Positions 1 to 33,009 of a stretch of 43,813 bases of DNA are shown one piece after another (position 1 is the stretch's first letter; each line of letters opens with the position of its first letter). The DNA is from Gemmatimonadota bacterium (GTDB taxonomy: Bacteria > Gemmatimonadota > Gemmatimonadetes > Longimicrobiales > RSA9). Where the stretch lies: contig JBDLIA010000021.1 in the NCBI GenBank assembly GCA_039715185.1, forward strand, positions 1 through 43,813, in the 5' to 3' direction. The notes under the pieces were generated by a model. That model was not told the DNA's origin. It saw only the letters and a list, made by a program, of their open reading frames with translations, and did no database searches. The translations under genes and the position numbers were made by a program.

Positions 1-96
1 ATGGACGCGAAGACGCGGCGACGGACTCGGAATGTGCACATGGTCATGGTACTGAAGGATATACCACTTGGGTCCATCCCGCTGCTGTCCACTTCC

Positions 97-11680: not shown

Positions 11681-12526
11681 ATGCCCGAACCGCTGCCGCT
11701 GGTGCTGATCGCCAGCCGAGACGAGTGGACGACCCGATCCGTGGAGTCGGTCCTCACTCCCTCAGGCTTCGCCGTCGAGCGCGCGCAGAGCGGGGCCCGG
11801 CTGTTGGCCCACGCCGCCGCGACCCGACCCGACGTGGTGCTACTGGGCACCGACCTCCCCGACGAGACGGGGGTGTCGGTGGCGCGCCGGCTACGAGAGG
11901 CCAGCGCCGTCCCCCCGAGCACGCCGATTCTCCTGCTCAGCCCTACTCCTCCCTCGCGCGCCGAGCGCATCGCCGCGCTCGAGGCAGGCGCCTGGGACGT
12001 CCTCGCCTTCCCGGTCGACCCGAGGGAGCTGCGCGCTCGGTTGAGCGTCTACGCGGGGGCCAAGCGCGACGCCGACGCGGCGCGCGGCGAGGGCTTCGTG
12101 GACGCGCATACGGGTCTCTACAACATGCGCGGGCTGCTGCGCAGGAGCGCGGAGATCGCCGCTTTCGCGCGGCGCATGGAGCAGCCGCTCGCGTGCGTCG
12201 TGTTCGAGGCGGACCGCGCGGGGGCGTCAGGTATTGAGTTGGCTGACGGCCAGGCGCCGGACCTGTCGGCGGTCGCGACCGTCTTTCTCGAGGTGGGGCG
12301 CCGCTCGGATGTCCTGGGGAGGGTCGACGAAGCGCATCTGGCGATCCTCGCCACCGACACCGACGACAGCGGGGCGCGCGGCCTCGCGCGTAGACTGTCG
12401 GGCGCGCTGGAGCCCGGGACCGCCGCCGCTCTGCGGACCGGCGTGTGGGCCGTGTCGGACGCCGGTCAGGCCCCGGCCGACCCGAGCGAAATGATCACGC
12501 TGGCGACTCGGGCCGTGGAGGCGTAG
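11681..12526 (+). CDS. Degenerate receiver domain fused to a degenerate GGDEF domain
   Basis: This is a 281-residue cytosolic protein. Residues 5-127 have the receiver fold, but every phosphorylation residue is changed: the acidic pair after strand 1 is A11-S12, the phospho-acceptor position in DVVLLGTDLP is Gly56 (an Asp lies two residues on), and the conserved Lys is Phe110 (VLAFPVDPREL). From about 140, DAHTGLYNMRGLLRRSAEIAAFARR copies the start of a GGDEF domain. The signature itself is reduced to GRVDEAHLAILA, lacking GG and the metal ligands. So neither phosphotransfer nor diguanylate cyclase activity is expected; a binding or scaffold role is more likely. The gene lies next to the Wzc-like kinase and converges on it. 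Confidence 0.8.
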   Translation: MPEPLPLVLIASRDEWTTRSVESVLTPSGFAVERAQSGARLLAHAAATRPDVVLLGTDLPDETGVSVARRLREASAVPPSTPILLLSPTPPSRAERIAALEAGAWDVLAFPVDPRELRARLSVYAGAKRDADAARGEGFVDAHTGLYNMRGLLRRSAEIAAFARRMEQPLACVVFEADRAGASGIELADGQAPDLSAVATVFLEVGRRSDVLGRVDEAHLAILATDTDDSGARGLARRLSGALEPGTAAALRTGVWAVSDAGQAPADPSEMITLATRAVEA

Positions 12527-12563
12527 GCGGGTTCTCCAGCGCCACCCACGCCTCCGCCGACTA

Positions 12564-14933
12564 TCAGCCGACGCCCGCGGGCGCCTCGTCGTGGGGCTCG
12601 TAGCCCGGCAGATAGCCGTAGATCTCATAACCCCCGTATAGGCGGCCCGCGGCGACGTCGTTCACCACGGCGCCCATCACGTGGACCGGGAAGCGCTCGA
12701 GGTTGTCGAGCTTGCTCTCCGTCATTTCCCGGTCGGTGCTGCCCGTCCGAAGGACGATCAGCGCGTTGCGCGTTGCCGTGGCGAGCACCAGCGGATCCAC
12801 CCCAGCGCCGAGCGGCGGGCTGTCCACGAGGATGGTGTCGTAGCGGCCACGCAACTCGTCGAGGAGATCGGTCAGGCGCGTGGTGCTCAGCAGCTCCGGC
12901 CCTCGACTCAGGCGCGTACCCGCAGGCAGCAGGTCGAGCGCCGGGTAGGGCGTCGGCTTGATCACCTCACTCAGCGTGGCCGTACCGTCCAAGAAGTCCA
13001 GCAGGCCGGGCTTGCGCTCGATGCCGAACATGCGGTGCAGCGCGCCTCGCCTCGTGTCGCCGTCCACCAGCAGCGTGCGTCGGCCCAACTCTGCGTAGGC
13101 GAGCGCCAGGTTGGCGGACACGAACGACTTGCCGTCGCCGCTGCCGGGGCTGGTTACGGTCAGCATGACCGGCCCGCCGTTGCCGTTCTCGAAGGAAACG
13201 TTGAGACGGACGTTGCGGAACGCTTCCACCAGCTCGGCCGCGTTCTCGAACTTGCCGAGCTGCTTGGGGCTATGGATGTGCGGAATGGCAGCGAGGATGG
13301 GCAGTCCCATCTGCCGCACCTGGTCGGGATGCTGCAGCCGCGGATCGAACTGGTCCCGCAGGAACGCGCCCACCAGGCCGAGCGCCAGCCCGCCGAGCAG
13401 GATCACGAGGAACATCCGGATGCGCTCATCGTTCACGGGCCGGATCGGCACCGCGACTGGATCGAGCTGGCGTATGTCCGGTATGCTGCTGACCGCGGCC
13501 AGACGCGCTTCCTCGTAGGAGGACTGGATGTTCCGGTAGATCCTGTCCGCGATGTCGCGGTTACGCACCAGCCGTTGCTCCTCCATGGAGCGCGCCGGGA
13601 TGCGACGGATCTGCGCCGAGGCCGTGCCGATTCGCCTCTGCAGGTCCGACTCGGTAGCCGACAGCCTGTTGAGCACGCCCTGCGCCAGCGCCGGGATCGT
13701 CCTGGCCTCGATCGACGCGATCTGGCCGGTGACCTCCTGCACCTGCGGGTGCTCGTCCGTGTACTGCTGCAGCAGCGCCCTGCGCTCCGCGCGCTTGGCG
13801 GCGAGGTCCGTGAGGGCCAGCGTCAGCTCGCGCGTATCCTGCACCGACGGGACGATCTCGAGTGACCCGAGGCCGGCGGCGGTCTCGCCGCCCAGGGCGC
13901 GCCGGATGGCGTCCTGATCGCGGCGTACCTGATCGAGCTCGAACTGCTGCTCGTAGTAGTTGCGAATCACCGGATCCTGTGCTGCCTGCACGCCCCCGGC
14001 GATGGGCGCCCCGGATTGCGACGGGAGCGTGATGGTGACGGCGCGGAAGCTCTCCAGCGCCAGCTCCGCCTCGCCCAGATTGTCCCGCGCGTACGTGAGC
14101 TGGTCCTCCATGATGCGCGTCAGCTCGTCCAGGCGGGCGCGCTTGAGGTCGGCCGCCGTCTTTACGAACTCGTCGAGGACCACCTGCAGCGTCGCCGCGG
14201 CGGCGCGCGGCTCCTCGCCCTCGAGGGAGATGACCATGAAGTTGCCGTCGCGCACGACGGTGGCGTCGAGGGCGCCGGCCAGGCTGCGCGCCGCGCCCAA
14301 CGTGCGGAAGAGCTGGAAGCCGTAAGCGCCGCTGGGCTCCAGCGCGCCCCTGGGGGCCTGCACCGTGAAGCCGCGCTCCGCGCCCACCGGCTCGCCGAGC
14401 GCCGCGCTGTCGATCACGGCCCCGGCTCCGTCGAGCAGGGAGTAGCGCGCTCCGGACCGGTCGACCGTCAGCGAGTACGCGCCCGGCTGGAACGCCTCCG
14501 TCATGTCGATGTGGGGGATGATGACCGTGTCGGTCGGAGCCGCGGTGCCCACGTTTAGCCTGCGGTCACGCACCACACCGTCCAGCACGGCATGCGTCTG
14601 CAGGAGTTCCACCCACCCGTAGCTCTCGAGCGGCTGGCGGGCCTCGATCGGCCCGCGTCCGCCGCGCGGCGGCTCCTCGATCCAGACCTTGCCCTCCACG
14701 TAGTACATGGGCGTCATGTTCCACGCGACCACGCCTCCCGCCACCGCGCCCAGCGCGGTCAGGCCGAAGATCAGCCACTTGTATCGCAGGGCGGCGGCCG
14801 CGTAGCGACGCCAGTCGAGGCCTTCATCCTCCACCGGATGGCGCGCCGGCCCTTCGGGCGGCCATTCGGCATCATGCGGCTGTAAGGGCGCGGGGCCGCC
14901 ATGCGGAGTGGGAAGGTTCCTGTTCTGTTCCAT
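12564..14933 (-). CDS. Wzc-like polysaccharide co-polymerase with BY-type tyrosine kinase domain
   Basis: This inner-membrane PCP-2a protein of 789 residues controls polymer length and export by cyclic autophosphorylation. The first transmembrane helix (about 49-71, YKWLIFGLTALGAVAGGVVAWN) is followed by a Wzz-type periplasmic domain with long coiled-coil stretches. The second helix (MFLVILLGGLALGLVGAFL) follows a Pro-rich segment. The kinase has Walker A SPGSGDGKS (about 595-603), Walker A' LLVDGD (about 622-627) and Walker B ILVDSPP (about 702-708). The tail RLYGGYEIYGYLPGYE holds five tyrosines, the expected autophosphorylation cluster. ATG 14933 is used; the preceding TTG adds one residue. 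A sigma-54-like promoter and the dyad lie upstream. The cognate phosphatase is probably the product at 38379. Confidence 0.94.
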   Translation of the reverse strand: MEQNRNLPTPHGGPAPLQPHDAEWPPEGPARHPVEDEGLDWRRYAAAALRYKWLIFGLTALGAVAGGVVAWNMTPMYYVEGKVWIEEPPRGGRGPIEARQPLESYGWVELLQTHAVLDGVVRDRRLNVGTAAPTDTVIIPHIDMTEAFQPGAYSLTVDRSGARYSLLDGAGAVIDSAALGEPVGAERGFTVQAPRGALEPSGAYGFQLFRTLGAARSLAGALDATVVRDGNFMVISLEGEEPRAAAATLQVVLDEFVKTAADLKRARLDELTRIMEDQLTYARDNLGEAELALESFRAVTITLPSQSGAPIAGGVQAAQDPVIRNYYEQQFELDQVRRDQDAIRRALGGETAAGLGSLEIVPSVQDTRELTLALTDLAAKRAERRALLQQYTDEHPQVQEVTGQIASIEARTIPALAQGVLNRLSATESDLQRRIGTASAQIRRIPARSMEEQRLVRNRDIADRIYRNIQSSYEEARLAAVSSIPDIRQLDPVAVPIRPVNDERIRMFLVILLGGLALGLVGAFLRDQFDPRLQHPDQVRQMGLPILAAIPHIHSPKQLGKFENAAELVEAFRNVRLNVSFENGNGGPVMLTVTSPGSGDGKSFVSANLALAYAELGRRTLLVDGDTRRGALHRMFGIERKPGLLDFLDGTATLSEVIKPTPYPALDLLPAGTRLSRGPELLSTTRLTDLLDELRGRYDTILVDSPPLGAGVDPLVLATATRNALIVLRTGSTDREMTESKLDNLERFPVHVMGAVVNDVAAGRLYGGYEIYGYLPGYEPHDEAPAGVG

Positions 14934-14984
14934 CAACCGGGTCCCCCGGATCGGGTTGGACGAAGGATTACCGCCGCCCTCGAT

Positions 14985-15000
14985 AGCAAGGGTGATACCG
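14985..15000 (-). promoter_or_regulatory. Candidate sigma-54 promoter of the wzc-like gene
   Basis: On the minus strand the sequence is CGGTAT-CACCC-TTGC-T against TGGCAC-N5-TTGC-W. It matches 7 of 10 positions plus W, with the invariant GG and GC exactly 10 bases apart. The predicted start is near 14974, giving a leader of about 40 bases. The 19-bp dyad lies 75 bp upstream of it, a normal enhancer distance. Confidence 0.5.
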
Positions 15001-15075
15001 CTGGGAATCTACCCCGAGTGGGGCCATTTGGAGCCAAGCGTACCGCCTTCGGACTGCCGAGCCCGCCGACTTCGT

Positions 15076-15094
15076 GTTGAGCTGTCGCAACAAC
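15076..15094. promoter_or_regulatory. 19-bp dyad GTTG-N11-CAAC, copy 2 (candidate activator site)
   Basis: The sequence is GTTGAGCTGTCGCAACAAC. It sits in the gap between the divergent wzc-like gene and the sigma-54 response regulator gene, 75 bp upstream of the -24 element of the wzc promoter candidate. It is 139 bases upstream of the regulator's own ATG, so it could also serve autoregulation. Confidence 0.55.
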
Positions 15095-15232
15095 CGCCGC
15101 AAGAATGCCTTGACGCGACGGTGCAACGCCCGCACCTTGGCTACCCTCTCCCAGCAACGGCTCCTCTACGTCGAGCGAGCCGGCCCGGCCTCGAGCGGAG
15201 GCCGAGCTTATCACAGACAGTATAGCGAATAG

Positions 15233-16755
<1,523 letters not shown>

Positions 16756-17883: not shown

Positions 17884-18185
17884 TCGTCTAGCGCGTGCGC
17901 GCATGCAACACGGGGCGGCTTGCGTCCGAGTGGAGGCGACCGGCTCGGTGGCGCACGATTGGGCTGCACCGGATCGGGCCAGAGGTGTGGAACGGGAGCC
18001 ACAGGCGCCGTCTCCGTGCGTCGCCGAAGCGGGCCGTGAGAGTTTCGGCCTAACCGTTCCAAGCCGGTATCTGGCAAGGAGATGGCACGATTGATTGGCG
18101 ACCGGGGCGAAGTCGCCACCGTCGCGCACGACGATTGCAAGGCAAGTCAGGTTCGAGTGCAGTACGACCCCTGAGTCGAATACGG
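17884..18185. other. Intergenic region upstream of the initiating transferase
   Basis: About 300 bases separate the kinase stop and the chosen transferase start. I see no gene here. It contains the sigma-54-type promoter at 18072-18087. No exact copy of the GTTG-N11-CAAC dyad was found; only GCAACA at 17905-17910. Confidence 0.55.
18072..18087 (+). promoter_or_regulatory. Candidate sigma-54 promoter of the initiating sugar transferase
   Basis: TGGCAA-GGAGA-TGGC-A matches TGGCAC-N5-TTGC-W at 8 of 10 positions plus W, with GG and GC exactly 10 bases apart. The predicted start is near 18098, about 88 bases before the ATG at 18186. It is in the right orientation, in a non-coding gap. Confidence 0.6.
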
Positions 18186-18980
18186 ATGCGTCTTTCAGAC
18201 AGCGTGGACCTCCCCAAAGCGGGCACCGGCCAATACGCCCGCGCCCGCGCCGAGAGTCTCGGTGGCTTCTTGGCCGTCGAGAACGGCGGCGGCATGGAAG
18301 GAGCGCCGGCCGCGACCGCCAGCGCCGGCCGCAGGGCCCCGGGCGCCGATCGCACCGTGCGCGCCCTCAACCTCGTCGTGGCGTGGTCCCTACTGATCCT
18401 GGGCCTGCCGGTCATGGCGCTCGTGGCGCTGCTCGTAAGGCTCACGTCGCCGGGTCCGATGCTCTATTCACAGCTCCGGGTCGGGCTGGACCGTCGTATC
18501 CCCGGAGACCATCGCTTCGCCGATCGGCGCCGCGTCGATTACGGGGGCCGCCTCTTCCGCATCTACAAGTTCCGGACGATGGTCCACACGCCGGGCAACG
18601 TAGCCGAGGCGTGGGCCGCGCCGGACGATCCGCGAATCACGCCCATCGGGCGCGTCCTCCGGCAGTTCCGCCTGGACGAGCTGCCGCAGTTGATCAACGT
18701 CCTCCAGGGCGAGATGAGCATCGTGGGGCCGCGCCCCGAGCAGCCCGCGATCTTCCAGAAGCTGCGCCGCACGCTGGGCGAATACCCGCGCCGCCAGCGA
18801 GTCCCGCCGGGCATCACCGGTCTCGCGCAGATCAGCCAGCACTACGATCGGTCGCTGGAGGACGTGCGCCGCAAGCTCGAGTACGACCTGGAGTACATCG
18901 GACGCCGGTCGCTCGGGGAGGACTTCCGTATCATGGTGCGCACGTTCCCCGTGGTACTGCTGCGACTCGGAGCGTGGTAA
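18186..18980 (+). CDS. Polyprenyl-phosphate sugar-1-phosphate transferase (initiating enzyme)
   Basis: This monotopic inner-membrane enzyme of the bacterial sugar transferase family (PglC/WcaJ catalytic domain) loads the first sugar-1-phosphate onto undecaprenyl phosphate and so starts the repeat unit. Of 264 residues, a 60-residue polar N-terminus precedes one hydrophobic segment (62-86, NLVVAWSLLILGLPVMALVA). Then come LTSPGPMLYSQLRVG, FRIYKFRTM (124-132) and the catalytic segment RLDELPQLINVLQGEMSIVG (162-181) followed by PRPEQP. The start is uncertain: ATG 18186 has no strong ribosome site, and ATG 18294 would remove part of the tail only. A sigma-54 promoter candidate lies upstream. The GT2 gene follows after 13 bases. 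Confidence 0.93.
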   Translation: MRLSDSVDLPKAGTGQYARARAESLGGFLAVENGGGMEGAPAATASAGRRAPGADRTVRALNLVVAWSLLILGLPVMALVALLVRLTSPGPMLYSQLRVGLDRRIPGDHRFADRRRVDYGGRLFRIYKFRTMVHTPGNVAEAWAAPDDPRITPIGRVLRQFRLDELPQLINVLQGEMSIVGPRPEQPAIFQKLRRTLGEYPRRQRVPPGITGLAQISQHYDRSLEDVRRKLEYDLEYIGRRSLGEDFRIMVRTFPVVLLRLGAW

Positions 18981-19930: not shown

Positions 19931-21133
19931 TCAGGGCTTGGCGGGCTCCGGCTGCTTCAGCTCCACGCGGTGCTCCATGTTGACGACACCGAAAAAGCCG
20001 GGATCAACCGGGATCTGGAAAAGCACGTTCGGGCCGAACGCGAGATGGCGCCGTTCGGCCACATCGAACACGGAGCTCTCGATCGAGTAGAGGCCCCCGC
20101 CCAGATTGACTTTCAGCTCCAGGTCGACGGTGAACGGGCCCTCCCGCGGCATGGCGATGTCCTCGGCCTCCAGGTTGAAGGCGAACATCGTCTGTGCCTT
20201 CTGAACGGACCGCACGCGGAAGCTGACGGTCTGCGTCGGCGACGCGGGCGGCCGCACCTCCCCCTCGAGCTTCACCCGGATCGTCTGACCCGACGTGAGC
20301 ATGGGCTCGTCCTCCATCGTGAGCCGGCGCAGCTGAACCGGGAGACGCTCGCCTCCCGAGCCCGCGACCTCGCTCGAACCCGCGATATACTGGGCTACGC
20401 ACTCACCGGGGGGGCCCCGAAACGCGACCTCGCCGGCGTCGAGCAGGATCGCCTTCGTGCACAGCGCGGCGATCCGGTCCAACTGGTGGGACACGATCAC
20501 GACCGGGATGTTCTGGCCCGCGATCTCGCCGATGCGGTCGAACGCCTTGCGCTGGAATCGCAGATCGCCCACCGCCAGGATCTCGTCGATGATCAGCACG
20601 TCGGGGGCGAGGTGCGCGGCGATGGCGAACCCCAGGCGGGCGTTCATGCCGCTGGAGTAGCGCTTGACGGGGGTGTCGATGAAGTCCGCCAGTTCGCTGA
20701 AGTCGACGATCCGGTCGAACTGCGCGGTGATTTCCTCCTGCGTCATCCCCATGATCGAGCCCTGCAGGAACAGGTTCTCGCGACCCGTCAGGTCGGGGTG
20801 GAAGCCGGCCGCGATCTCGATCATCGAGCCCACCCGCCCGCTCACGCCACAGCTTCCGCGGGTCGGCCGCAGGATCCGCGTGAGCAGCTTGAGGATGGTG
20901 GATTTGCCCGCCCCGTTGGGGCCGATGATGCCCAGGGCCTCGCCGGGATCGACCGTGAAGGAGACGTCCCGAACAGCCCAGAATTCGGTCCCCTCGAGTT
21001 CGTCCGCGCCGGCGCGCCTGCGACCCAGCAACCGCCCCGCGATCGAGGGCACGAGATCCCGCAGGCTGTCATGCAACTCTCCCCGGCGGAACTTCTTCCA
21101 GACACGGTCGAAGTGTACGCTGTCCTGCGTCAT
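19931..21133 (-). CDS. Wzt-like ABC-transporter ATPase with C-terminal carbohydrate-binding domain
   Basis: This ATPase subunit of an ABC-2 polysaccharide exporter has 400 residues. The nucleotide-binding domain has Walker A GPNGAGKST (71-79), signature YSSGM (159-163), Walker B VLIIDE (179-184) and the H-loop VIVSHQ. From about 255, the extra beta-sandwich domain (RLTMEDEPMLTSGQTIRVKL, GPFTVDLELKVNLGGGLYSIES) corresponds to the Wzt C-terminal domain that recognises the finished glycan's end. It is the last gene of a minus-strand group (GT4, GT2, PRT-HAD, wzt); only 1 base separates it from the PRT-HAD stop. The matching permease is not adjacent but 6.4 kb away, at 27593-28555. Confidence 0.93.
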   Translation of the reverse strand: MTQDSVHFDRVWKKFRRGELHDSLRDLVPSIAGRLLGRRRAGADELEGTEFWAVRDVSFTVDPGEALGIIGPNGAGKSTILKLLTRILRPTRGSCGVSGRVGSMIEIAAGFHPDLTGRENLFLQGSIMGMTQEEITAQFDRIVDFSELADFIDTPVKRYSSGMNARLGFAIAAHLAPDVLIIDEILAVGDLRFQRKAFDRIGEIAGQNIPVVIVSHQLDRIAALCTKAILLDAGEVAFRGPPGECVAQYIAGSSEVAGSGGERLPVQLRRLTMEDEPMLTSGQTIRVKLEGEVRPPASPTQTVSFRVRSVQKAQTMFAFNLEAEDIAMPREGPFTVDLELKVNLGGGLYSIESSVFDVAERRHLAFGPNVLFQIPVDPGFFGVVNMEHRVELKQPEPAKP

Positions 21134-21134
21134 A

Positions 21135-22157
21135 TCAGTTCATATCCTTGGTACCGGCCTGGGTACTGGCCTCCACAGCCGACTTACCGGCCGCACGCTT
21201 GATGAGCCGCAAGACCTGACGTCGAGCGGCACCTACCCAGCCCCTGGCGAGCCAGTCGACTCCTCTGCGACGGCTTTGTGCGATCAGACTGGGCCGCACG
21301 AGCGAACGAGTCCCCATGCAGTAGACGGGCTTGCCCGACCGCTGGGCTATCTCGCTCGCCTGACTGGGATTGCTCTCCACGAAAAACAACGCGCCGGTCG
21401 TGCAATACACGTCTGACTTGAAGGCCCCGTACGCGCCCGCGGCCCGACGCGACTCCGCGTCCGGATAGTCCATCATGAGCAGTTCGCTGTACCGAATCCC
21501 GTTCTTCTCCAGCCACGCCTCGGTAGCCGGCCGGTACTTTTCCAGGCGGCAGGTAACCAGCCAGCCGACCTGCACGTTGGGCGTGTGCAGTGCGGGTGCG
21601 TTGGCTATGAAATCGAGATAGGCGGAACCGTCGTCGTTCTGCTGCGGCGTCGGATCGGGGCACAAGACGCCGTCGATGTCGACGCAGCTATAGGACATCA
21701 ACCAGTCGGCGTGCAGGAGATTCCATTCGAAAGCTCGGGGGGCGGCTACGACCTCGCAGTAGTGGTCGACCTCGTCCAGTGTTCCCAGGTCCGCGAAAAC
21801 CACCCCGTAGCGGATCCGGTGCGGCAGAGCGGCCGCACCGACGCGCTCTCTCACCTCCCGAAGCGACGCACCGGAGCGGATCGAATCGTCGACGATGAGC
21901 ACCGAGCGAGGCTCGTCCAGATAACGCTCGACGGCGTCCACGCCGTACTTGCCGCGGAAGCGCCGGCCTCCATCGTAGACGCGCCCCGCCAGGAATCCAT
22001 CGAGGTCGGCCATCGGAAGGTTCCGGTGCAGCGCCAGCAGCGTGGCCGCCAGCAGGCCGGAACGCGGCACCCCCACGATCAGGTCGATGTCGGCGGGGAG
22101 CGTCAGCGCCCACTCCACGATGCGCGCGTTCATGTCGTCGAAGCTCCGGTAGTTCAC
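21135..22157 (-). CDS. Phosphoribosyltransferase domain fused to a HAD-like phosphatase domain
   Basis: This is a 340-residue cytosolic fusion. The N-terminal type I PRTase domain (1 to about 150) has IDLIVGVPRSGLLAATLLA and the PRPP loop SVLIVDDSIRSGASL (85-99). The C-terminal part starts SYSCVDIDGVLCPDPT, the HAD motif I (D160-x-D162-G-V-L). It includes GWLVTCRLEKYRPATEAWLEKNGI, where motif II Ser/Thr would lie, and FKSDVYCTTGALFFVESNPSQA, near the motif III/IV zone. The GTG at 22157 overlaps the upstream GT2 stop (GTGA). A basic tail ends the protein. The linked pair suggests synthesis and dephosphorylation of a ribose-phosphate or nucleotide-type precursor for the glycan. That role is inference; the substrate is unknown. 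Confidence 0.8.
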   Translation of the reverse strand: MNYRSFDDMNARIVEWALTLPADIDLIVGVPRSGLLAATLLALHRNLPMADLDGFLAGRVYDGGRRFRGKYGVDAVERYLDEPRSVLIVDDSIRSGASLREVRERVGAAALPHRIRYGVVFADLGTLDEVDHYCEVVAAPRAFEWNLLHADWLMSYSCVDIDGVLCPDPTPQQNDDGSAYLDFIANAPALHTPNVQVGWLVTCRLEKYRPATEAWLEKNGIRYSELLMMDYPDAESRRAAGAYGAFKSDVYCTTGALFFVESNPSQASEIAQRSGKPVYCMGTRSLVRPSLIAQSRRRGVDWLARGWVGAARRQVLRLIKRAAGKSAVEASTQAGTKDMN

Positions 22158-23332
22158 GCGGCCTCCACGGTCGCGGTCGGATCCCGGCGGGTGGGCTCCC
22201 AGATGGCCGATTGCTCTCCGCCCAGCGCCTTCAAAGCGGCGTGGACGGCGGCGAGGTTTCCGAGCGCGGCCCACGCCGGCAACGCGAAGGGCCGGGGTAC
22301 CCGGCCGTCGCGCAGCCACGCGAGCGCGGTGATCAGGCCGAGCCCGATGGCGCCGGCCACGGCCAAGCGCGCCCACGTCTGGGTGACGGCGAGCAAGGCG
22401 GTCGCCGCCAGCGCGGCCAGGGCCGCCCAGGGGACCACCCAGCGAGCCACCTTGTGGCTCCACAACATCCAGGCGAAGACCCCATAACGGGCCGGGTTCA
22501 GCAGCGCGCTGTTGTACGCGAGCGTGCGCATTCCACGCACCATCGTTCGGACCTTGCGCCGGTACTCCCGGCGCAGCGACGCGGCTCGCGGCACCTGACA
22601 CGTGGCGGTATCCACGGACACGGCACGATACCCGTGCTCCCGCGCGCGCAACGCCGCCGCGAAGTCCCGGCTGAGGCCGGCCGGCAGCGCGAGCCGGTGC
22701 AGGGAAGCTCGGATCAGGTAGCAGCTGCCGGAGGCGCCCACGATTCCGTGCACGCGCGTCTCCAGCGCGCGCACCGCCATCTCGTATCCCACGTAGCCCC
22801 GCTCCCCCTCGTTACCCGCGTGCTCGTCCCCGCTGACGCTAACGTCCCTGCCGGAAGCCACTCCGACGCTGGGATCTCGGAACGCACCTACCAGCGCCTT
22901 CAGCGAAGCGGGGTGCGGGCGAACGGATGCGTCCGTGTTCAGGACGAGATCGGTGTCGATTTCCCTCAGAGCCGCCCCCTCGGCGGCGGTCTTGCCCACG
23001 CGGTCGGGGAGCGCGATGAGGTCCACGCCACGCGCGGCGTATGAGCGCACGATGCGATCCGTGCCGTCCGTGGAGCCGTCGGAAACGATCAGCACGCGCC
23101 TCAGCTCGGTGGGGTAGTCGAGCGCCAGCAGGCTGTCGAGCGCCCCCGCCATCTGGGCCTCCTCGTTGTACGCCGTGAGGGTCACGGTCACCGACGGCCA
23201 CTCCGACTCGCCTCCGTCCTCGGCCGCCGGCCTTCGCAACGCCGCCGCCACGCGGAGCAGCACGGGATAGCCCACGAAGGCGTAGCCGCCTATCGCGATG
23301 GCGACGACCAGGAGGGCGTACGCCACGGTCAT
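22154..23332 (-). CDS. Membrane glycosyltransferase family 2
   Basis: The product has 392 residues and the architecture of processive or membrane-bound GT2 enzymes. An N-terminal helix (4-28, AYALLVVAIAIGGYAFVGYPVLL) is followed by a GT-A domain with TLTAYNEEAQMAGALDSLL, VSDGSTDGTD, LVLNTDASVRP (DxD-like) and GASGSCYLIRASLHRL. Two or three C-terminal helices come after a basic segment (RREYRRKVRTMVRGMRTL), a typical R/QxxRW-like region without a clear QxxRW. Its ATG lies in an ATGA overlap with the GT4 gene upstream, and its stop overlaps the PRT-HAD GTG. Product unknown. Confidence 0.88.
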   Translation of the reverse strand: MTVAYALLVVAIAIGGYAFVGYPVLLRVAAALRRPAAEDGGESEWPSVTVTLTAYNEEAQMAGALDSLLALDYPTELRRVLIVSDGSTDGTDRIVRSYAARGVDLIALPDRVGKTAAEGAALREIDTDLVLNTDASVRPHPASLKALVGAFRDPSVGVASGRDVSVSGDEHAGNEGERGYVGYEMAVRALETRVHGIVGASGSCYLIRASLHRLALPAGLSRDFAAALRAREHGYRAVSVDTATCQVPRAASLRREYRRKVRTMVRGMRTLAYNSALLNPARYGVFAWMLWSHKVARWVVPWAALAALAATALLAVTQTWARLAVAGAIGLGLITALAWLRDGRVPRPFALPAWAALGNLAAVHAALKALGGEQSAIWEPTRRDPTATVEAA

Positions 23333-24459
23333 CGAGGTTGCTCCGATTGGAGGCGGGCGGCGCCGCCCAGTGCGACTCGGTACACGTCCTCGTAGCTCTC
23401 CACCCAGTCCGTGGCGACGCCGCGCGGGCGCCGCGCGGCTTCCGCGCGCCGCCTGGCCGCGGCGGGATCCCGGTGTATCTGCGCGATCGAGGCGGCCAGT
23501 CCGGCGGCGTCCTCCGAATCCGCGAACAGCGCCCCCTCGGCGCCGACCGCGTCGGGCACGCCCCCCACCCGGGTCGCGACCAGCGGGACCCCGGCCTCCA
23601 CCGCTTCCAGCAGGGTCACGGGGGTGCCCTCGCGGCGCGAGCTCAGCACGACGACGTCGAACCCGCACATGAGCCTGGCCGCATTGGCCAGCTCGCCCGC
23701 AAAGCGGGTCCGCCCGTCGAGGCCCAGCGCGGCGGCGCGATCCTCCATGGACCTACGCAGCGGGCCATCGCCCACTATCGACGCGCGCCAGGACAAGTCC
23801 GCGGGCAGCCGCGCCAGAGCCTCGAGGAACACGTCGGGGCCCTTCTCCGGGCTGAGTCTGCCGACCCAGCCGATGTGAAAATCGGTGGGGGACGCACCGA
23901 GCGCCCGGCGCGCTTCTGCGGCCGACGCGGGGGGGGTGGGCAGCGGCGCGCCGTTGACCACGGTGCTGACCCCCGTCACGCCGGCGGCCAGCAGCGCCTC
24001 GGCCAGGTCGGCCGAGACCGCAACGACGGCGTCGCAGCGTCGCAGGGCCCTGCGCTGCAGCCATTCATACGCGCGGTTGCGCGGACCACCGCCGGTGAAC
24101 CCGTGCACGGTGCTGACCCTCGCCGCGCCTACGCCCGCGGCGAGCGGGCCCGCGAGCACGTCGGAGCGGTAGCCGTGGGTGTGCAGGATCTGCGCTCCGA
24201 ACCCGCGCGCGAGCGTACGAACCGCGTGCCGCTCGGCGCCGTACGCCCGTGGCGGCAGCCTGAGCGGCACCAGGTCGACACCCCGGTGCTCGGCCGCGGT
24301 GATCGCCGCGGGCACGTCCGCGCCGACGTCCAGCACGGTCGCGAGCGTCACCCGATGACCCCGCCCGGCCAGCCCCGCCGTGAGGGCAGCGACGACCCGC
24401 TCCAGGCCCCCGAAGGGGGCCGGGGCGCACACGTGCAGAATGTTCAGCGCGTCCGTCAT
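23329..24459 (-). CDS. Glycosyltransferase family 4
   Basis: This is a GT-B fold retaining glycosyltransferase of 376 residues. N-terminal acceptor domain: ILHVCAPAPFGGLERVVAAL, with the Gly-rich loop. C-terminal donor domain: IGWVGRLSPEKGPDVFLEAL and VLSSRREGTPVTLLEAVEAG, the E-x7-E motif. ATG 24459 is chosen because MTDALNILHVC is the natural GT4 start; the reading frame otherwise runs far upstream as a shadow of the divergent membrane gene. It heads the four-gene minus-strand group ending in the Wzt-like ATPase. Confidence 0.9.
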   Translation of the reverse strand: MTDALNILHVCAPAPFGGLERVVAALTAGLAGRGHRVTLATVLDVGADVPAAITAAEHRGVDLVPLRLPPRAYGAERHAVRTLARGFGAQILHTHGYRSDVLAGPLAAGVGAARVSTVHGFTGGGPRNRAYEWLQRRALRRCDAVVAVSADLAEALLAAGVTGVSTVVNGAPLPTPPASAAEARRALGASPTDFHIGWVGRLSPEKGPDVFLEALARLPADLSWRASIVGDGPLRRSMEDRAAALGLDGRTRFAGELANAARLMCGFDVVVLSSRREGTPVTLLEAVEAGVPLVATRVGGVPDAVGAEGALFADSEDAAGLAASIAQIHRDPAAARRRAEAARRPRGVATDWVESYEDVYRVALGGAARLQSEQPR

Positions 24460-24479
24460 TCGGGCTTGCCGGCTCGGTC

Positions 24480-24498
24480 GTTGTGGCATCGACGCAAC
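24480..24498. promoter_or_regulatory. 19-bp dyad GTTG-N11-CAAC, copy 3 (candidate activator site)
   Basis: The sequence is GTTGTGGCATCGACGCAAC, with both 4-bp arms intact, G at position 6 and CG at positions 11-12 as in copies 1 and 2. It lies only 21 bp before the GT4 ATG at 24459, so for that gene it would overlap the promoter. For the divergent plus-strand gene it is 76 bp upstream of a weak sigma-54-like element at 24575. Confidence 0.45.
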
Positions 24499-24558
24499 GC
24501 TCAACCCACGCTCCGCCGCGCGCGCGCGGCACGCACGTCCGGCGCGCGCGCGCAAGGC

Positions 24559-24590
24559 GAGCCGCCACGTGGCGGCAGGCCGCACGGTTG
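24559..24590 (+). promoter_or_regulatory. Perfect palindrome abutting a weak sigma-54-like element
   Basis: GCCGCCACGTGGCGGC (24559-24574) is a perfect 16-bp palindrome. It is directly followed by AGGCCG-CACGG-TTGC-G (24575-24590), which has GG-N10-GC spacing and an intact TTGC but only 3 of 6 in the -24 hexamer. It may be the promoter and operator of the membrane glycosyltransferase at 24718. Alternating CG tracts at 24515-24551 lie just upstream. Confidence 0.3.
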
Positions 24591-24717
24591 CGGGGTGAGA
24601 GCGCCGTCGCTTCTTTCGGGCGACACGCGGTCCGAGTTGCAAGTCTTTGGCCGCGATCCTGCGGACAGCAAGGGGACGGTCGCGCCGCCCGAGGGCGGCA
24701 CTCCAGAGGCGAAACGC

Positions 24718-26403
24718 ATGGGCCACACCAAGTCGCACCTCCCCGCCGTCGAGCGCCTGCGCGGTGGCGCCTGGATTGGCGGCGCGGTCGTGGTGGTCGC
24801 CGCGCTCGCCGTGCGGCTGGTGGGCCTCGACCACACGCCGCACATGGACGAGCTCTACCACTTCATGGCCGGTGGCTCGCTCCTGGAGGACGGCTCCCTG
24901 CGGCTCTCGCCCGACGGCGGGGAGTACACCCGTGCGCGACTCTTCACCTGGCTGGTTGCCGGCTCCATGCGGGTCTTCGGCGAAGGACTCGCCCAGGCCC
25001 GGCTCCCCTCGGTGCTCGCCGGCGCGCTGCTGGCGGGCGCCGTGTTTGTCGCGGTGCGTAGTTACGCGGACCCGCTCGCCGCCTGGATCGCGGCCGCGCT
25101 CGTGGCTCTGGCCCCCACCGACCTCTATCTGTCTCAGAGCGCCCGCTTCTACACCGTGCATGCGCTGATGGTGTGGACCGCGGCGGTGGCCGTGTTCGCT
25201 CTGGCTTCGCGGCCGGAGCGTTGGGACCGGCGCGCGGCGGCGTACGCGGTCGGCGCGGTTACGGCGCTGGCCGTCGCCTACCACCTCCAGATCAGCACCG
25301 CGCTGGCGGCGGCGGCCATCGGCCTGGCGGCGCTCCCGGTCGCGATCTACACGCTGCGCGCGAAGCTGCCCACCGCGCCCCGCTGGACGTGGGCGCTCGC
25401 CGCCCTGGTGGTCGTTGCGTTGGCCTCGTGGGTCTGGCTCGGCGGCCTCGGCGAGCGCTTCGCGCGCGCGTACAGCGCGCCCAGCGCGGTGGTGGTGGGA
25501 CGCGACCCGAGCCCCCGCTTCTACTACGACTACTTCGCGCGTCTCTACGGCGGCGCCTGGTCGCTGCTGCCGCTGCTCGCGGCGCTGGCCTTGATCCGCC
25601 GCCCGCGCTTCGCGGCGTACCTGGCGGTCATGGCGGGCGCGGCCCTTCTGGCCGTCTCCTTCTCGGCCTGGCGCCACGAACGCTACGTCTACTTCGCCTT
25701 GCCCGCGGCGTACGCCCTCGCGGCCATCGGCGCGTCGACCCTGATCGGGTGGACCCACGGCGCCCTGGCTGCGCTCCTCGAGCGAGGAAAGGCGACGCGC
25801 GAGCGGCGTTCGTTGGCGCTCGGCCTGACGGTCGTGGCGGTGCTCGGCTGGGCCGCGTTTGCCGCCCCTAGCGTGGACGCCGTCTCCTACACCTACCGCA
25901 TGCTCACCGTCGACGACGGCGAGTGGTGGCTCGGTGGGCACTACCGGGGCGAGGCGGACTGGGAGCTGGCCGCCGACAGTGGTCTGGCCGAGGAGGCGGA
26001 GAGGGCCGCGGTGATCGTCGCAACGAGCCCGCACAAGGCGACATACGCGCTCGGCGGATTGGATTTCGTGTTGCTCGGACGCGCCGTCGACCGGCGAGGT
26101 GGCCTCGCCGCCGAGCCCACGCGCGACCGACAGTGGAATCGCCCCGAGGTGGCCTCCGCCGCCGCCGTGCAGGCGATCATGGCGTGCAACCCCAGCGGGA
26201 TGATCGTCGCGGAACGCCGCGAGTGGCGCCGCCCGGAGGGGGTGTCGGATGCGGCGGCGGATCTCATCGAGGCGACGGCCCGCAGCATCGCGCTGTCGCC
26301 GGCGACGAGGATGGTGGCATACGCGTGGGATGCTCCGGCGCGCGGCGCGACGCCGCCCGCTGGCTGGGCGTGCACGGCGGACGGCGGTATCGCCCGCCGC
26401 TAG
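24718..26403 (+). CDS. GT39-like (ArnT/PMT-type) membrane glycosyltransferase
   Basis: This polytopic inner-membrane GT-C enzyme has 561 residues and uses a polyprenyl-phosphate sugar on the periplasmic side. After the first helix (about 19-37), the first loop carries HTPHMDELYHFMAGGS, the acidic catalytic pair of GT-C enzymes. The segment LAPTDLYLSQSARFYTVHAL is typical of ArnT/PMT-like proteins. About ten more hydrophobic helices follow, then a soluble C-terminal part of about 190 residues. AGAGG precedes ATG 24718. The enzyme is related in plan to the product at 40827 (EQDELYTL, WHIYHSQFARYWTL). It stands alone on the plus strand and converges with the GT4 gene at 26415. Confidence 0.85.
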   Translation: MGHTKSHLPAVERLRGGAWIGGAVVVVAALAVRLVGLDHTPHMDELYHFMAGGSLLEDGSLRLSPDGGEYTRARLFTWLVAGSMRVFGEGLAQARLPSVLAGALLAGAVFVAVRSYADPLAAWIAAALVALAPTDLYLSQSARFYTVHALMVWTAAVAVFALASRPERWDRRAAAYAVGAVTALAVAYHLQISTALAAAAIGLAALPVAIYTLRAKLPTAPRWTWALAALVVVALASWVWLGGLGERFARAYSAPSAVVVGRDPSPRFYYDYFARLYGGAWSLLPLLAALALIRRPRFAAYLAVMAGAALLAVSFSAWRHERYVYFALPAAYALAAIGASTLIGWTHGALAALLERGKATRERRSLALGLTVVAVLGWAAFAAPSVDAVSYTYRMLTVDDGEWWLGGHYRGEADWELAADSGLAEEAERAAVIVATSPHKATYALGGLDFVLLGRAVDRRGGLAAEPTRDRQWNRPEVASAAAVQAIMACNPSGMIVAERREWRRPEGVSDAAADLIEATARSIALSPATRMVAYAWDAPARGATPPAGWACTADGGIARR

Positions 26404-26414
26404 GGTTCCGCGGC

Positions 26415-27584
26415 TCACCGCTCGCCCCTGCCGGCAGCGCACCGTTCCAGGATGGTGCGCACGCGGGCTGCGATGGCCGGCCAGCGGAATCCCTCCGCGA
26501 CCGCGCGCACGCGCTCCGGGTCGAACTGCCCCGGGTGGTCGGCGTAGATCCCGAGCGCGGCCGCGATCGTAGTGGGCTCGGAGTCCCTGATGAGCAGCCC
26601 GTTCTCGCCATCGACGACCGCGTCAATGGACCCGCCCGTGCGGCTGCAGATCACCGGCGTACCCGCGGCGGACGCCTCCATGTAGACGATCCCGAAGCCC
26701 TCCACGTCGGTGTCGCTGGCGCGTGAGGCCAGGACGAAGAGGTCCGCGTCGGCATAGAGTTCCTTGAGGCGCTCGCGGCCCACGAATCCCTCGAATCTGG
26801 TGCGTCCGGCCACCCCGAGCTCTTCGGCGAGGTTCTCAACCCGGCTGCGGTCCTTGCCATCGCCCACGACCGTGTAGCGCACATCGAGATCCGACGGCAG
26901 CAGGGCGAGCGCGCGCAGGACCCCGTCTACGTTCTTGCGTGGCGTGCCACGGTCCAGTCGCGTCACGGTCAGCAGCCGAAGCGGCCCAGGTCGCCGCTCC
27001 GGTCGCTCCTGGAAGAAGTCCTCGGCAACCCCCGGATGCACAACGCTGGTGTGACCCTCGTTGCCCGGATAGAGACGCGCCAGGATGGCCGCCGTGTTGG
27101 CGCTGTTGGCCAGTATGCCCGCGGCATCGGCCAACCCCTTGCGCAGGTCACGCACGCGCAGCCGCTCGCGCAATGCTGGGACGATCCGCCACACCACCGT
27201 GGACGTCTCAATGTGCCGGACCCAGGGCCGCGACCGGTGCACCCAGGGGCGCAGCAGGTCGTTGCCGTTCACGTAGATCGCCAGGGGAGCAGACAGGTGC
27301 GACGCGGCCGCGGCGTAGCCGGCGTTGCAGGCGAACCAGACATCGCAGCGGTGATCGGCCAGCACGGCCAGGTCGGCACTCAGCTCACGCGTGAGGACCC
27401 GCCGCAGGGGGATGCCCTGCCAGCGCTCGTCGTCGCCGGGGGCGTCGTGGCGGGTAAACACGACCACGTCGTCCCGCGGAGCCAATCCGGCCGCCAGCTG
27501 CCGGCCGAACTCGGCCATGCCGCCGAACTCCTTGAATTCGGGCGCGATGAGCCCGATGCGCATAGCCGACATCGCCGTGGGCAT
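26415..27584 (-). CDS. Glycosyltransferase family 4
   Basis: This 389-residue GT-B glycosyltransferase has IGLIAPEFKEFGGMAEFGRQL (acceptor domain), LLTVTRLDRGTPRKNVDGVL, LRYTVVGDGKD-type donor-site segments and DTDVEGFGIVYMEASAAGTP with the E-x7-E pair. Start options are ATG 27584 (GAGG upstream, 8 bases after the wzm stop), 27572 and 27563; I use 27584. It is the last gene of the lipoprotein - Wzm - GT4 operon, whose candidate sigma-54 promoter is at 29141-29156. It is likely involved in the same glycan that the Wzm permease exports. Confidence 0.9.
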   Translation of the reverse strand: MPTAMSAMRIGLIAPEFKEFGGMAEFGRQLAAGLAPRDDVVVFTRHDAPGDDERWQGIPLRRVLTRELSADLAVLADHRCDVWFACNAGYAAAASHLSAPLAIYVNGNDLLRPWVHRSRPWVRHIETSTVVWRIVPALRERLRVRDLRKGLADAAGILANSANTAAILARLYPGNEGHTSVVHPGVAEDFFQERPERRPGPLRLLTVTRLDRGTPRKNVDGVLRALALLPSDLDVRYTVVGDGKDRSRVENLAEELGVAGRTRFEGFVGRERLKELYADADLFVLASRASDTDVEGFGIVYMEASAAGTPVICSRTGGSIDAVVDGENGLLIRDSEPTTIAAALGIYADHPGQFDPERVRAVAEGFRWPAIAARVRTILERCAAGRGER

Positions 27585-27592
27585 GGCCCGCC

Positions 27593-28555
27593 TCAGACGT
27601 ACTCTGCGAAGACGAACTCGAACCGGTGGAACACGAGTGCGCCGACCGTCAGCGCGCCGACCGCGGACGCAGCCGCGTAGAGCAGGTACTCGGGGCTCCA
27701 CGCGATTACTTCGGCGCCACGACCGCTCACGACGGTGAGGGGCTGCAGCAGGTTGTGCCCCTCCACAACGGCCAGTCGGAAGCCTTCCAGAAGCGGGGCA
27801 AGCGGGTTGAGCATCATGATCTGCGCGCCGAGCGGCCCGAACATCGCCGGCTCGAAGAACACCGGCGTGAAGAAGATCCCGAACGTCAGCAGCACCTGCA
27901 CGATGTATTTGACGTCCCGGAAGAACAGGTTCGCGCAGCTCAGCAGCAGCGCCGTACCGAGTGTGAAGGCGAAGAGCAGCGCCGCCAGCAGCGGGATCCA
28001 CAGCAGGATTCCGAACGAGTACGCCACGCCCATCAAGGGCAGGGCGAGCAACAGCGCGATCGAGCCGACCGTCGAGTCGAACGACTGCGCCAGGACGGAA
28101 GCCAGCGGCAGCGCTTCGCGCGGAAAATACACCTTGCCGACCAGTTGGGCGTTGCCGGTCAGGCTCGTCGTCGCGAAGCCGATCGCACCCACGAAGAAGG
28201 CCCACGGAACCGCCTTCACGGCCATCCCGGCTATCTCACCGCCGTTGACATCGCTGCCCGAAACGTACGCCATCGCGTAGCGCACGAGCGCCCCGGCGAG
28301 GACTATCAGGCCCGGCATCAGAATGGCCCAGGCGAACCCCATGACCGCCTGCTTGTAGCGAATCCGCACGTCGCGGAGGGCGAGCTGGTAGGTCAGCTGG
28401 CGGTACTGCCAGGTCTCGGAGGCGATCTCGCGCAGCGTGCCGAACAGCCGGCGGCGAGGCGGGGACCCGCCCTCCGGCGAACCACGCGCGGCTTCAGCCA
28501 TTGCGGTCTCGGCGGAGTACCCGACCTGCGCATCGGGCGTAGATGTAGTAATCAC
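27593..28555 (-). CDS. Wzm-like ABC-2 permease of polysaccharide export
   Basis: This inner-membrane permease has 320 residues. A cytoplasmic N-terminus with an amphipathic stretch (YRQLTYQLALRDVRIRYKQA, typical of the TagG/Wzm family) is followed by six hydrophobic helices. The first is about VMGFAWAILMPGLIVLAGALV, and later NLFFRDVKYIVQVLLTFGIFFTPVFF matches the family. It is the expected partner of the Wzt-like ATPase at 19931. A GTG start at 28555 is used; ATG 28501 (MAEAARGS) would shorten only the unordered N-terminus. It is 18 bases after the lipoprotein stop. Confidence 0.92.
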   Translation of the reverse strand: MITTSTPDAQVGYSAETAMAEAARGSPEGGSPPRRRLFGTLREIASETWQYRQLTYQLALRDVRIRYKQAVMGFAWAILMPGLIVLAGALVRYAMAYVSGSDVNGGEIAGMAVKAVPWAFFVGAIGFATTSLTGNAQLVGKVYFPREALPLASVLAQSFDSTVGSIALLLALPLMGVAYSFGILLWIPLLAALLFAFTLGTALLLSCANLFFRDVKYIVQVLLTFGIFFTPVFFEPAMFGPLGAQIMMLNPLAPLLEGFRLAVVEGHNLLQPLTVVSGRGAEVIAWSPEYLLYAAASAVGALTVGALVFHRFEFVFAEYV

Positions 28556-30689: not shown

Positions 30690-31816
30690 GCCTCTCGATC
30701 CTCGTAGATGGCCGAATACTGCTCCACCATCGTGCCCAGATCGAACTCCCGGCGCACGCGCTCTCGCGCAGTCTCCCCATCGGCGCGCCTCTCCTCGGCG
30801 CCCTCCAGCGCACGAGACAGTGCTGTCGAGAGCGCGTCGGCATCACTCGGTGGCACAAGCCGGTGGGCCAGACCAGCCCCGAGAACGTCCGCGTTTCCGC
30901 CGACATCCGTCACCACGGGGCAGCAACCGGCGGCCATCGCCTCGAGCAGACTGATCGATGTCCCCTCGCTGTGGGATCCCAGGGCGAACACCGAGGCCTC
31001 CTCCAACAGCGACGCCACGTCGTCCAGCCAGCCCACGAAACGGATCTGGTCAGCGATCCCCGAATCGAACGCTCGCGCCTCGAGTGCAGAACGCTGGGAA
31101 CCGTCGCCTGCTACGATCAACACGGGCGGGCTCTCGCCCGAGTCGACTAGCGCGAGGCGGGCAAAGGCATCAATCAGTAAGTCGTACCCCTTCACTGGCT
31201 CCAAGCGTCCAACGCTGGCGACGATCCGGGCGTCGGAGGCTATCGAGAATGACCGGCGCAGCGCTCGCGTACCAGCACTGGCGACGCGCTTTGCCTCTAT
31301 CCCGTTGCGCACGACTCGGACACGGTCGCGGTCCACTCCGACTGCGCGGACAAGCAGCGTCGCCGTCTTTTCGGATACGGCCACCACTACGTCAGTGCGA
31401 CGCGATGCGACGCGGTCCAGACGGCGAGAAATCCACGGATCGGGTACGTGGCGACCGTGTTCGGTATGCACCAGTCTCGCAACACCGGCCGCTCGCGCCG
31501 CCTTAGCCGCCTTGTACCAGACCCCGCTGTGGGTGTGCACGACATCCGGGGCCAGCCTTCGGATCGCCTCCGCCAAGCGGCGCGGCCATAGCAGAGACGC
31601 CCGCTCCTGCCGCGGTCCGAGATGTACGGTTGCCGCGGACTCCAGGTCGCGGCCGAATCGGCCTACGTACTGAAGCGCCATGACATGACTCTCGAACCGA
31701 CGTTGATCCAGCCTGTTGACCAGATCCGCCAGGACGCGCTCCATTCCCCCGTAGTTCAGGTTCTGGATGATGTGCAGAACCCGGAGAGGCCCCTGTCCTG
31801 GGCGCGGGTCATTCAT
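30686..31816 (-). CDS. Glycosyltransferase family 4
   Basis: This is a 376-residue GT-B glycosyltransferase with VLHIIQNLNYGGMERVLADL (acceptor loop), DVVHTHSGVWYKAAKAAR, IVASVGRLEPVKGYDLLIDA and ALGSHSEGTSISLLEAMAAG, the E-x7-E pair. It overlaps both neighbours by 4 bases (the ATP-grasp stop upstream and the GT4 GTG downstream), so it is translationally coupled. Sugar specificity unknown. Confidence 0.92.
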   Translation of the reverse strand: MNDPRPGQGPLRVLHIIQNLNYGGMERVLADLVNRLDQRRFESHVMALQYVGRFGRDLESAATVHLGPRQERASLLWPRRLAEAIRRLAPDVVHTHSGVWYKAAKAARAAGVARLVHTEHGRHVPDPWISRRLDRVASRRTDVVVAVSEKTATLLVRAVGVDRDRVRVVRNGIEAKRVASAGTRALRRSFSIASDARIVASVGRLEPVKGYDLLIDAFARLALVDSGESPPVLIVAGDGSQRSALEARAFDSGIADQIRFVGWLDDVASLLEEASVFALGSHSEGTSISLLEAMAAGCCPVVTDVGGNADVLGAGLAHRLVPPSDADALSTALSRALEGAEERRADGETARERVRREFDLGTMVEQYSAIYEDREA

Positions 31817-33009
31817 GCGAACAGATCCCGCACCCAGCGGGCGCTCTCGGCGAGGAACGGCTTCGGATCTCCAACCCGTAGCACCTCCAGGCGAGTGCGG
31901 CTTCCTCTGCCACGGAGCTGTTCGCGCAAGGTCGCGGCTCCGACCGCAAAACTTCCCCGAATTCCGAACGTGTTACCGGCCCGAACCCTTGCGATCAAGT
32001 GGTCCACCTCGCCCCATAGCCAGCGCGAGCCCACATCCACAGCGTAGTGGGGTTCGACCTCGGGCCGGTTGCCAATCGCCCACTCAGCCAGCAGTAGCGG
32101 GAAATCTACACCGGCGTCGACGGCGAGTTGAAGCGAACCCCACAGTCGGGGGTTCACCTCCATGACGTGCGGAACTCCCATCGCCTCATCCAGCTTGAAC
32201 TCCACCATTGCGACACCGCTCCAGTCAAGTTCGGCCAGCAACGCGAGGGCAGACTCGCGCAGCTCCTCGGAAAGAGGGGCACTCTGCCGGTATACGCTTA
32301 CGCCACCGCTCGGCGGGCGTTCACGGATTCGGCGGTGGGCGAAAGTAGCCAGTACATCGCCCCGGTCCACCAACAGGAACACTCCCACACCGGGCCCCAC
32401 CACTCGCCTTTGAAGCAGGAGGGGAAATGCCGCAGCGGGCATCGCCGCTACGGATTCGGCCAGCTCGGCGGCATCTCGCGCATACTTCACGGAGAACTTG
32501 ACCCCGGGCTCCTCCAGCGGGCGAACCGACCGCGCGGGCTTGATGACGATGGGTAGTCCGAGGGCTGTCAACTCGTCGTCGCTCAGGGTCCTCGGTGCGT
32601 CCAGACAAACCGTGTGCGGCACGGCGATGCCGAGCCGCTGGGCGAGGCGGACGATCTCACCCTTGTCCGAAGCGCGTAGCACGGTCTCGAGAGGCGGAAA
32701 CGGAACCGAGGCGGGAGCCAGTCTGGACGGGTCTCGGCTCACCGCGAGGAGAGCAGCCTCGGAAACGGGAAGTACGACCGACGGACGGTACTTCCTCACG
32801 ACCTCGGTCAGCTCTTCGAGAAACCCGACGGGGTCGCGAAGAGGGGACCGGGCGGCATGCCGGGACGCCGCAAAACGAGAAGCGCCCGCCAGCGACCGCC
32901 GGGCCTCTGCGACCACTCGGACGGTCCACCCGGCGGCCCCGAGTGACCGGACCACCGCCAACGACGCGCGCTGCTCGCCGTCCGTGACGATTACGGACGG
33001 TTCAATCAC
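31813..33009 (-). CDS. ATP-grasp ligase
   Basis: This 398-residue cytosolic enzyme has a carboxylate-amine/thiol ligase fold of the CarB-like ATP-grasp group. A Rossmann-like pre-ATP-grasp domain (SVIVTDGEQRASLAVVRSLGAAG) precedes LRASDKGEIVRLAQRLGIAVP, LGLPIVIKPARSV (ATP-binding Lys), EPGVKFSVKY, VAMVEFKLDEAMG and PHVMEVNPRLWGSLQLAVDAGV, which carries the metal-binding E and N. It sits between a deacetylase and a GT4, with 4-base overlaps to both. In this setting it may attach an amino acid or other amine/carboxylate to a sugar or precursor. That role is inference; homologues have diverse substrates. Confidence 0.85.
   Translation of the reverse strand: MIEPSVIVTDGEQRASLAVVRSLGAAGWTVRVVAEARRSLAGASRFAASRHAARSPLRDPVGFLEELTEVVRKYRPSVVLPVSEAALLAVSRDPSRLAPASVPFPPLETVLRASDKGEIVRLAQRLGIAVPHTVCLDAPRTLSDDELTALGLPIVIKPARSVRPLEEPGVKFSVKYARDAAELAESVAAMPAAAFPLLLQRRVVGPGVGVFLLVDRGDVLATFAHRRIRERPPSGGVSVYRQSAPLSEELRESALALLAELDWSGVAMVEFKLDEAMGVPHVMEVNPRLWGSLQLAVDAGVDFPLLLAEWAIGNRPEVEPHYAVDVGSRWLWGEVDHLIARVRAGNTFGIRGSFAVGAATLREQLRGRGSRTRLEVLRVGDPKPFLAESARWVRDLFA

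Follow-up and report, generated by a model that had tools for sequence, protein, structure and literature searches.

The two-step ribofuranosylation of a glycan directly from PRPP is described for the gPRT-PRP ribofuranosyltransferases (PMC10299916, PMC11231755, PMC12096443). These enzymes are found in Haemophilus (CriT/CrpP of Hib Bcs3), C. jejuni (Cj1432), K. pneumoniae O4 (ORF5) and O7 (ORF7), and E. coli K13 (KrkA). In Bcs3, CriT occupies residues 599-1036 and contains helical bundles, and CrpP carries a 98-residue helical cap (PMC10299916). A further report states that all previously identified PRP domains have an alpha-helical HAD cap, and ribofuranose-adding enzymes were sought there with the capped PRP domain as the marker (PMC11127046). 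The same report describes C. youngae ORF15, for which ribose-5-phosphate transfer and dephosphorylation take place on polyprenyl phosphate to serve a GT-C.

Here, we describe a PRT-HAD fusion encoded in a Gemmatimonadota window (the whole 43,813-nucleotide stretch of DNA analyzed). We propose, with moderate confidence, that the fusion acts in a surface-polysaccharide pathway as a two-step ribofuranosyltransferase that draws on PRPP. This proposal rests on both predicted folds, the conserved catalytic residues, the operon position, and the distribution of the family.

RESULTS

The fusion lies within a glycan cluster

The first-pass annotation had placed a PRPP loop and a HAD motif on one 340-residue protein in a glycosyltransferase operon, with a 4-base overlap with a GT2 gene and with wzt next in line. 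Each of these elements was recovered, with the gene on the minus strand (Table 1). In the translation, VLIVDDSIRSG spans residues 86-96 and DIDGVLC spans residues 160-166, the GT2 stop and the fusion GTG start share the bases GTGA, and the wzt ATG (21133) lies one base past the fusion stop. GT2, GT4, GT-C, and Wzm/Wzt genes were recognized around the fusion via Pfam. We read the open reading frame as coding because its GC content is 0.81 at the third codon position versus 0.48 at position 2.

Table 1. Features of the fusion and of the surrounding cluster (window coordinates, or residues where stated)
Feature	Position	Strand	Pfam	Remarks
Bacterial sugar transferase (initiating phosphoglycosyltransferase type)	18135..18980	plus	PF02397 (5e-57)	
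Wzt-type ABC ATPase	19931..21133	minus	PF00005 (2.4e-21)	C-terminal extension
PRT-HAD fusion	21135..22157	minus		340 aa; GTG start at 22157, stop at 21135-21137
Fusion, PRT domain	residues ~1-150			PRPP loop 86-96
Fusion, HAD domain	residues ~151-288			
Fusion, basic C-terminal helix	residues 291-336			
GT2 glycosyltransferase	22154..23335	minus	PF00535 (on 22154-23251)	membrane segments; start inferred at MTVAYALL
GT4 glycosyltransferase	23329..24447	minus	PF00534	start approximate
GT-C, PMT_2-like	24466..26403	plus	PF13231	~9 membrane segments; start approximate, true one may be near 24718
GT4 glycosyltransferase	26415..27602	minus	PF00534 (1.9e-33)	
Wzm-type ABC-2 permease	27593..28555	minus	PF01061	
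ATP-grasp gene	31813-33009		PF15632 (ATPgrasp_Ter)	

The AlphaFold2 model of the fusion has two separate domains (mean pLDDT 91.4, pTM 0.80). At the hydrophobicity threshold used, 0 transmembrane segments were found, and the protein is predicted to be soluble. Aligned with 53 viral relatives, the window protein shares invariant P31, R32, S33, G34, D91, G96, W145, D160, D162, G163, and R204, while D90, N146, T202, E206, R209, K247, E261, and S262 are kept in at least 90% of the sequences. Over 22 bacterial and 78 viral rows, the PRPP loop, the loop-I PRSG, and the HAD residues D160, D162, T202, K247, and E261 are near-invariant. An F-x-W-N hood is conserved as well. Conservation of this kind is well beyond what a chance reading frame would show.

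Both halves resemble enzymes of nucleotide chemistry

PF00156 matched residues 21-145 of the fusion (1.6e-6, above the model cut-off). When the model was compared via VIA-align, XGPRT ranked first among the matches listed for the N-terminal half (4jls_B, Z 15.3, 4.9 A over 124). This half is a core of about 150 residues in the model, without helical bundles of the CriT kind around it. It shares the fold of XGPRT and the other 6-oxopurine PRTases (Z of about 15) but differs from them in its fused HAD and in the Asp of the purine-enzyme PRPP loop (DDVADTG and DDITDTG in the aligned 6-oxopurine PRTases), a position that varies in the fusion family, with Asp in no more than 2 of 100 rows. This variability counts against purine salvage, which we rejected as the main role.

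No Pfam model matched the HAD half, and PHROGs placed it near phage polynucleotide kinases. All four HAD motifs are present (I, D160/D162; II, T202; III, K247; IV, E261), including motifs III and IV, whose absence the first-pass annotation had named as a finding that would refute its reading. Many HADs have a second Asp in motif IV, where the fusion family has serine. The best of the VIA-align matches listed for residues 151-284 was the T4 Pnkp 3'-phosphatase (5uj0_B, Z 13.0, 2.9 A over 119), and Pnkp phosphatases were matched again (Z 12.6, 3.1 A over 119) when the HAD half was folded alone (pLDDT 96.2). Foldseek returned no match at E<=0.001 for the HAD half alone. A phage arabinose-1,5-diphosphate phosphatase (9iqw, rank 46, Z 6.7) was set aside as a relative given that its score falls within the chance range for HAD matches. 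The model has only one short helix between motifs I and II and no helical cap; the spacing between these motifs is 42 residues in the window protein and 27-47 (median 42) over 100 rows. The fusion thus shares a capless fold with the T4 Pnkp/Pnkp1 3'-phosphatase (Z 12 to 13) but lacks a kinase domain and carries a PRT instead. The predicted structures bear out the suggestion of a transferase and a phosphatase on one chain, with XGPRT-like and Pnkp-like folds whose active sites look intact.

The usual substrates of both folds, XGPRT-like and Pnkp-like, are nucleotides or nucleic acids, adenine phosphopsicosyltransferase (7f06) was among the weak sequence matches to the fusion, and the cluster contains an ATPgrasp_Ter gene. 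We therefore considered that the PRT could ribosylate a base or small molecule, a role suggested for the PRTase, HAD, and ATP-grasp genes in the Ter system, or that the viral copies could modify DNA. Such a role is improbable given the glycan gene context and the poor conservation of the purine-enzyme Asp. The Ter system has the same enzyme classes and one ATP-grasp family in common with the window, whereas the window cluster consists of glycosyltransferases and an ABC exporter. The ATP-grasp family, moreover, is widespread among genomes of the phylum. The Ter system was rejected because the TerD family was found in 0 of 1 genome (that of the window) versus 2 of 14 control genomes.

Some relatives have lost catalytic residues

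HAD motif I is altered, with the PRPP loops intact, in the copies of L004/G079 (SIEG), L005/G076 (SLEG), L003 (239-1246, copy L003a; EIDG), and L006 (DLEG). The Rhodobacter plasmid L014 carries two fusion genes (12001-12975 and 14629-15579) flanking a GT4 gene; the first has degraded PRT loops, a decay opposite to that in G076 and G079, and the other is intact. Given that the HAD nucleophile is replaced in G076 and G079, dephosphorylation cannot be universal in the family. Judging from their residues, these two copies should be inactive as phosphatases, and 5-phosphoribosyl groups could then stay in place. Copies of these kinds (motif I missing in L004 and L005 and altered in L003a and L006; PRT loops lost in the first L014 copy) also raise the idea that the window protein is accessory or has decayed, serving in regulation or binding with both folds preserved but at least one activity lost. 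This is very unlikely, given that each catalytic residue we examined is retained in the window copy, in the PRT and the HAD half alike.

Relatives are rare in the phylum and present on many viral contigs

A fusion match was found in 4 of 154 genomes of the window's order, with three places in G124, and in 6 of 395 genomes of the phylum sample. Among 72,556 plasmid records, 41 matched at ~41-50% identity, all from alphaproteobacterial genera. Uncultivated viral contigs yielded 85 relatives, of which 80 were kept (72 distinct sequences), some with cysteine-rich N-terminal extensions. Single-protein searches of genome contigs and of viral contigs gave one weak locus each. No full-length relative was found in annotated phages, though many uncultivated viral contigs (L021-L100) carry one. 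In a midpoint-rooted FastTree phylogeny, the 22 bacterial sequences grouped with 4 viral ones (support 0.874), nested in viral diversity.

Of the 23 bacterial loci that we inspected, seven come from six other genomes and 15 from the set of 41 plasmid records; the window itself is the remaining one. At 18 of the 23, a gene for a glycosyltransferase, polysaccharide flippase, pyruvyltransferase, or GT-C lay at most two genes from the fusion, a raw count over loci that are not all independent, given that the plasmid records are partly close kin (e.g., L009/L110 and L010/L108/L109). The other five were L017 and L020 (unscanned), L003 (too short), L112 (MBOAT and DUF1574 genes), and L113 (none). A wide spread away from glycan genes, which the first-pass annotation had named as refuting its reading, is thus mostly not what these loci show; two of them carry no glycosyltransferase, and the G076 fusion has no glycan neighbors. 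In the Rhizobium plasmids L010, L108, and L109, the fusion has a caspase-family gene on one side and a glycosyltransferase on the other, with type VI secretion genes (vgrG) next to it. A GMC oxidoreductase gene occurs near the fusion in L014 (Rhodobacter) and L016 (Sinorhizobium sojae).

The viral neighbor table covers 72 of the 80 loci; a methyltransferase gene lies directly upstream of the fusion in 19 of these 72 (14 distinct sequences) and overlaps it in 17. Other neighbors are mixed and include tail and capsid genes as well as GT2, GT17, sugar-nucleotide, and pyruvyltransferase genes. The scans of near and far viral neighbors are indicative only, as they drew on 100 of 133 and on 100 of 181 cluster representatives, respectively, and list 25 of 39 families in each case. 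Phage copies may act on something other than the bacterial acceptor.

The fusion co-occurs with a rare GT-C

Homologues of the window GT-C (E<=1e-20) were present in 9 of 390 phylum genomes, including all 6 fusion-positive genomes of the phylum sample (hypergeometric P 1.8e-11 by genome and 2.4e-6 by genus). G124 likewise has the GT-C, so that 7 of 7 known fusion-bearing genomes of the phylum carry it. The two genes are neighbors in G183 (31 bases apart), G371, and G383. They lie on different contigs in G076 and G079, so the pairing does not come solely from a single island being inherited as a unit. In the three GT-C genomes that have no fusion, the fusion profile gave nothing beyond weak matches of PRTase type.

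A lipid-linked donor would account for this co-occurrence more readily than direct transfer would. The fusion could charge polyprenyl phosphate with ribose-5-phosphate and dephosphorylate it to polyprenyl-phospho-ribofuranose, from which the GT-C, after flipping, would add the pentose at an extracytoplasmic site. The fusion would then stand in, as a soluble enzyme, for the UbiA-type synthase found in three-component systems (PMC11127046). The basic C-terminal helix, which is present in bacterial copies and missing from most viral ones, is consistent with such a role. However, the helix is not significantly amphipathic (its observed moment was reached by 9 to 30% of shuffles), and the argument from an amphipathic membrane helix was dropped. 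As a control, homologues of the cluster ATP-grasp gene were found in 88 of 390 genomes, among them 5 of the 6 fusion genomes, suggesting that fusion genomes are glycan-rich in general and that this accounts for part of the GT-C signal, although the GT-C link is much sharper. In G076, G079, G149, and G084, the GT-C adjoins a GT2 pair whose products may themselves be the GT-C donors, and one pair member has homologues in 10 of 10 tested genomes. No GT-C was recognized beside the alphaproteobacterial copies scanned. Taken together, we regard the lipid donor as possible but rather unlikely. In four genomes, the GT2 genes adjoining the GT-C (L132 7030-9764, L128, L129, and L131) form a possible polyprenyl-phospho-sugar cassette.

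DISCUSSION

Like the gPRT-PRP enzymes, the fusion combines a PRTase fold bearing a PRPP loop with a HAD bearing motifs I-IV on one chain encoded in a surface-polysaccharide locus, and, as in K. pneumoniae O4 and O7, the locus encodes export by an ABC transporter. However, its HAD has no helical cap, its PRT is a bare XGPRT-like fold without the helical bundles of CriT, and its PRT comes first, unlike Bcs3 and Cj1432, in which the HAD precedes the PRT (the KrkA paper gives the order in other words). Bcs3 entries were not among the structure matches listed for the fusion. The fusion is like a gPRT-PRP enzyme in its proposed action, yet it is set apart from that group, as described, by cap, bundles, and order. 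None of the titles and abstracts listed from the open PMC literature describes a PRT-first, capless-HAD build.

The reaction proposed for the fusion, PRPP-dependent ribose-5-phosphate transfer followed by dephosphorylation, also resembles that of C. youngae ORF15 and the mycobacterial DPPR synthase (UbiA-type PPPRS), and a GT-C partner is again at hand. The UbiA-type enzymes are integral membrane proteins, whereas the fusion is predicted to be soluble and has a type I PRTase fold; with 0 hydrophobic segments and that fold, identity with a membrane PPPRS was rejected. The analogy to DPPR synthesis drawn in the first-pass annotation is kept alive by the rare GT-C in all seven fusion genomes of the phylum, although the fusion, unlike DPPR synthase, has no predicted transmembrane segment. 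Its broader suggestion of a PRPP transferase and phosphatase for glycan assembly is probably right, although the better-documented precedent is direct ribofuranosylation of a glycan and not a lipid or nucleotide precursor.

For direct glycan ribofuranosylation, we infer the donor, acceptor, step order, and product as follows. The XGPRT-like N-terminal domain would bind PRPP-Mg and move ribose-5-phosphate with inversion onto an acceptor hydroxyl, releasing pyrophosphate. The capless C-terminal HAD would then remove the 5-phosphate via Asp160, leaving a ribofuranose open to extension by the next enzyme. We take the acceptor to be a cytoplasmic lipid-anchored glycan that would be exported afterwards by Wzm/Wzt. 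In the window, where the fusion gene lies between GT2 and wzt, a glycan is the likelier acceptor, with a lipid as a serious rival. A bolder version, which we regard as doubtful, is that the family represents a third, separately evolved pentofuranose build, in which a soluble XGPRT-like/capless Pnkp-like fusion charges polyprenyl phosphate for the phylum's dedicated GT-C, and phage members act cytoplasmically on virion glycans or DNA.

In summary, our analysis suggests that a known job is probably done by a differently built, uncharacterized enzyme that is also encoded on at least 80 uncultivated viral contigs. Given its capless HAD and reversed domain order, such an enzyme could escape a screen for capped PRP domains, and pentofuranose in glycans may exceed the current count. 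The members on viral contigs would give phages a PRPP-driven sugar modification, and copies that have lost the HAD nucleophile predict glycans decorated with phosphoribosyl groups. Together, the fusion and the rare GT-C constitute a testable candidate two-gene pathway.
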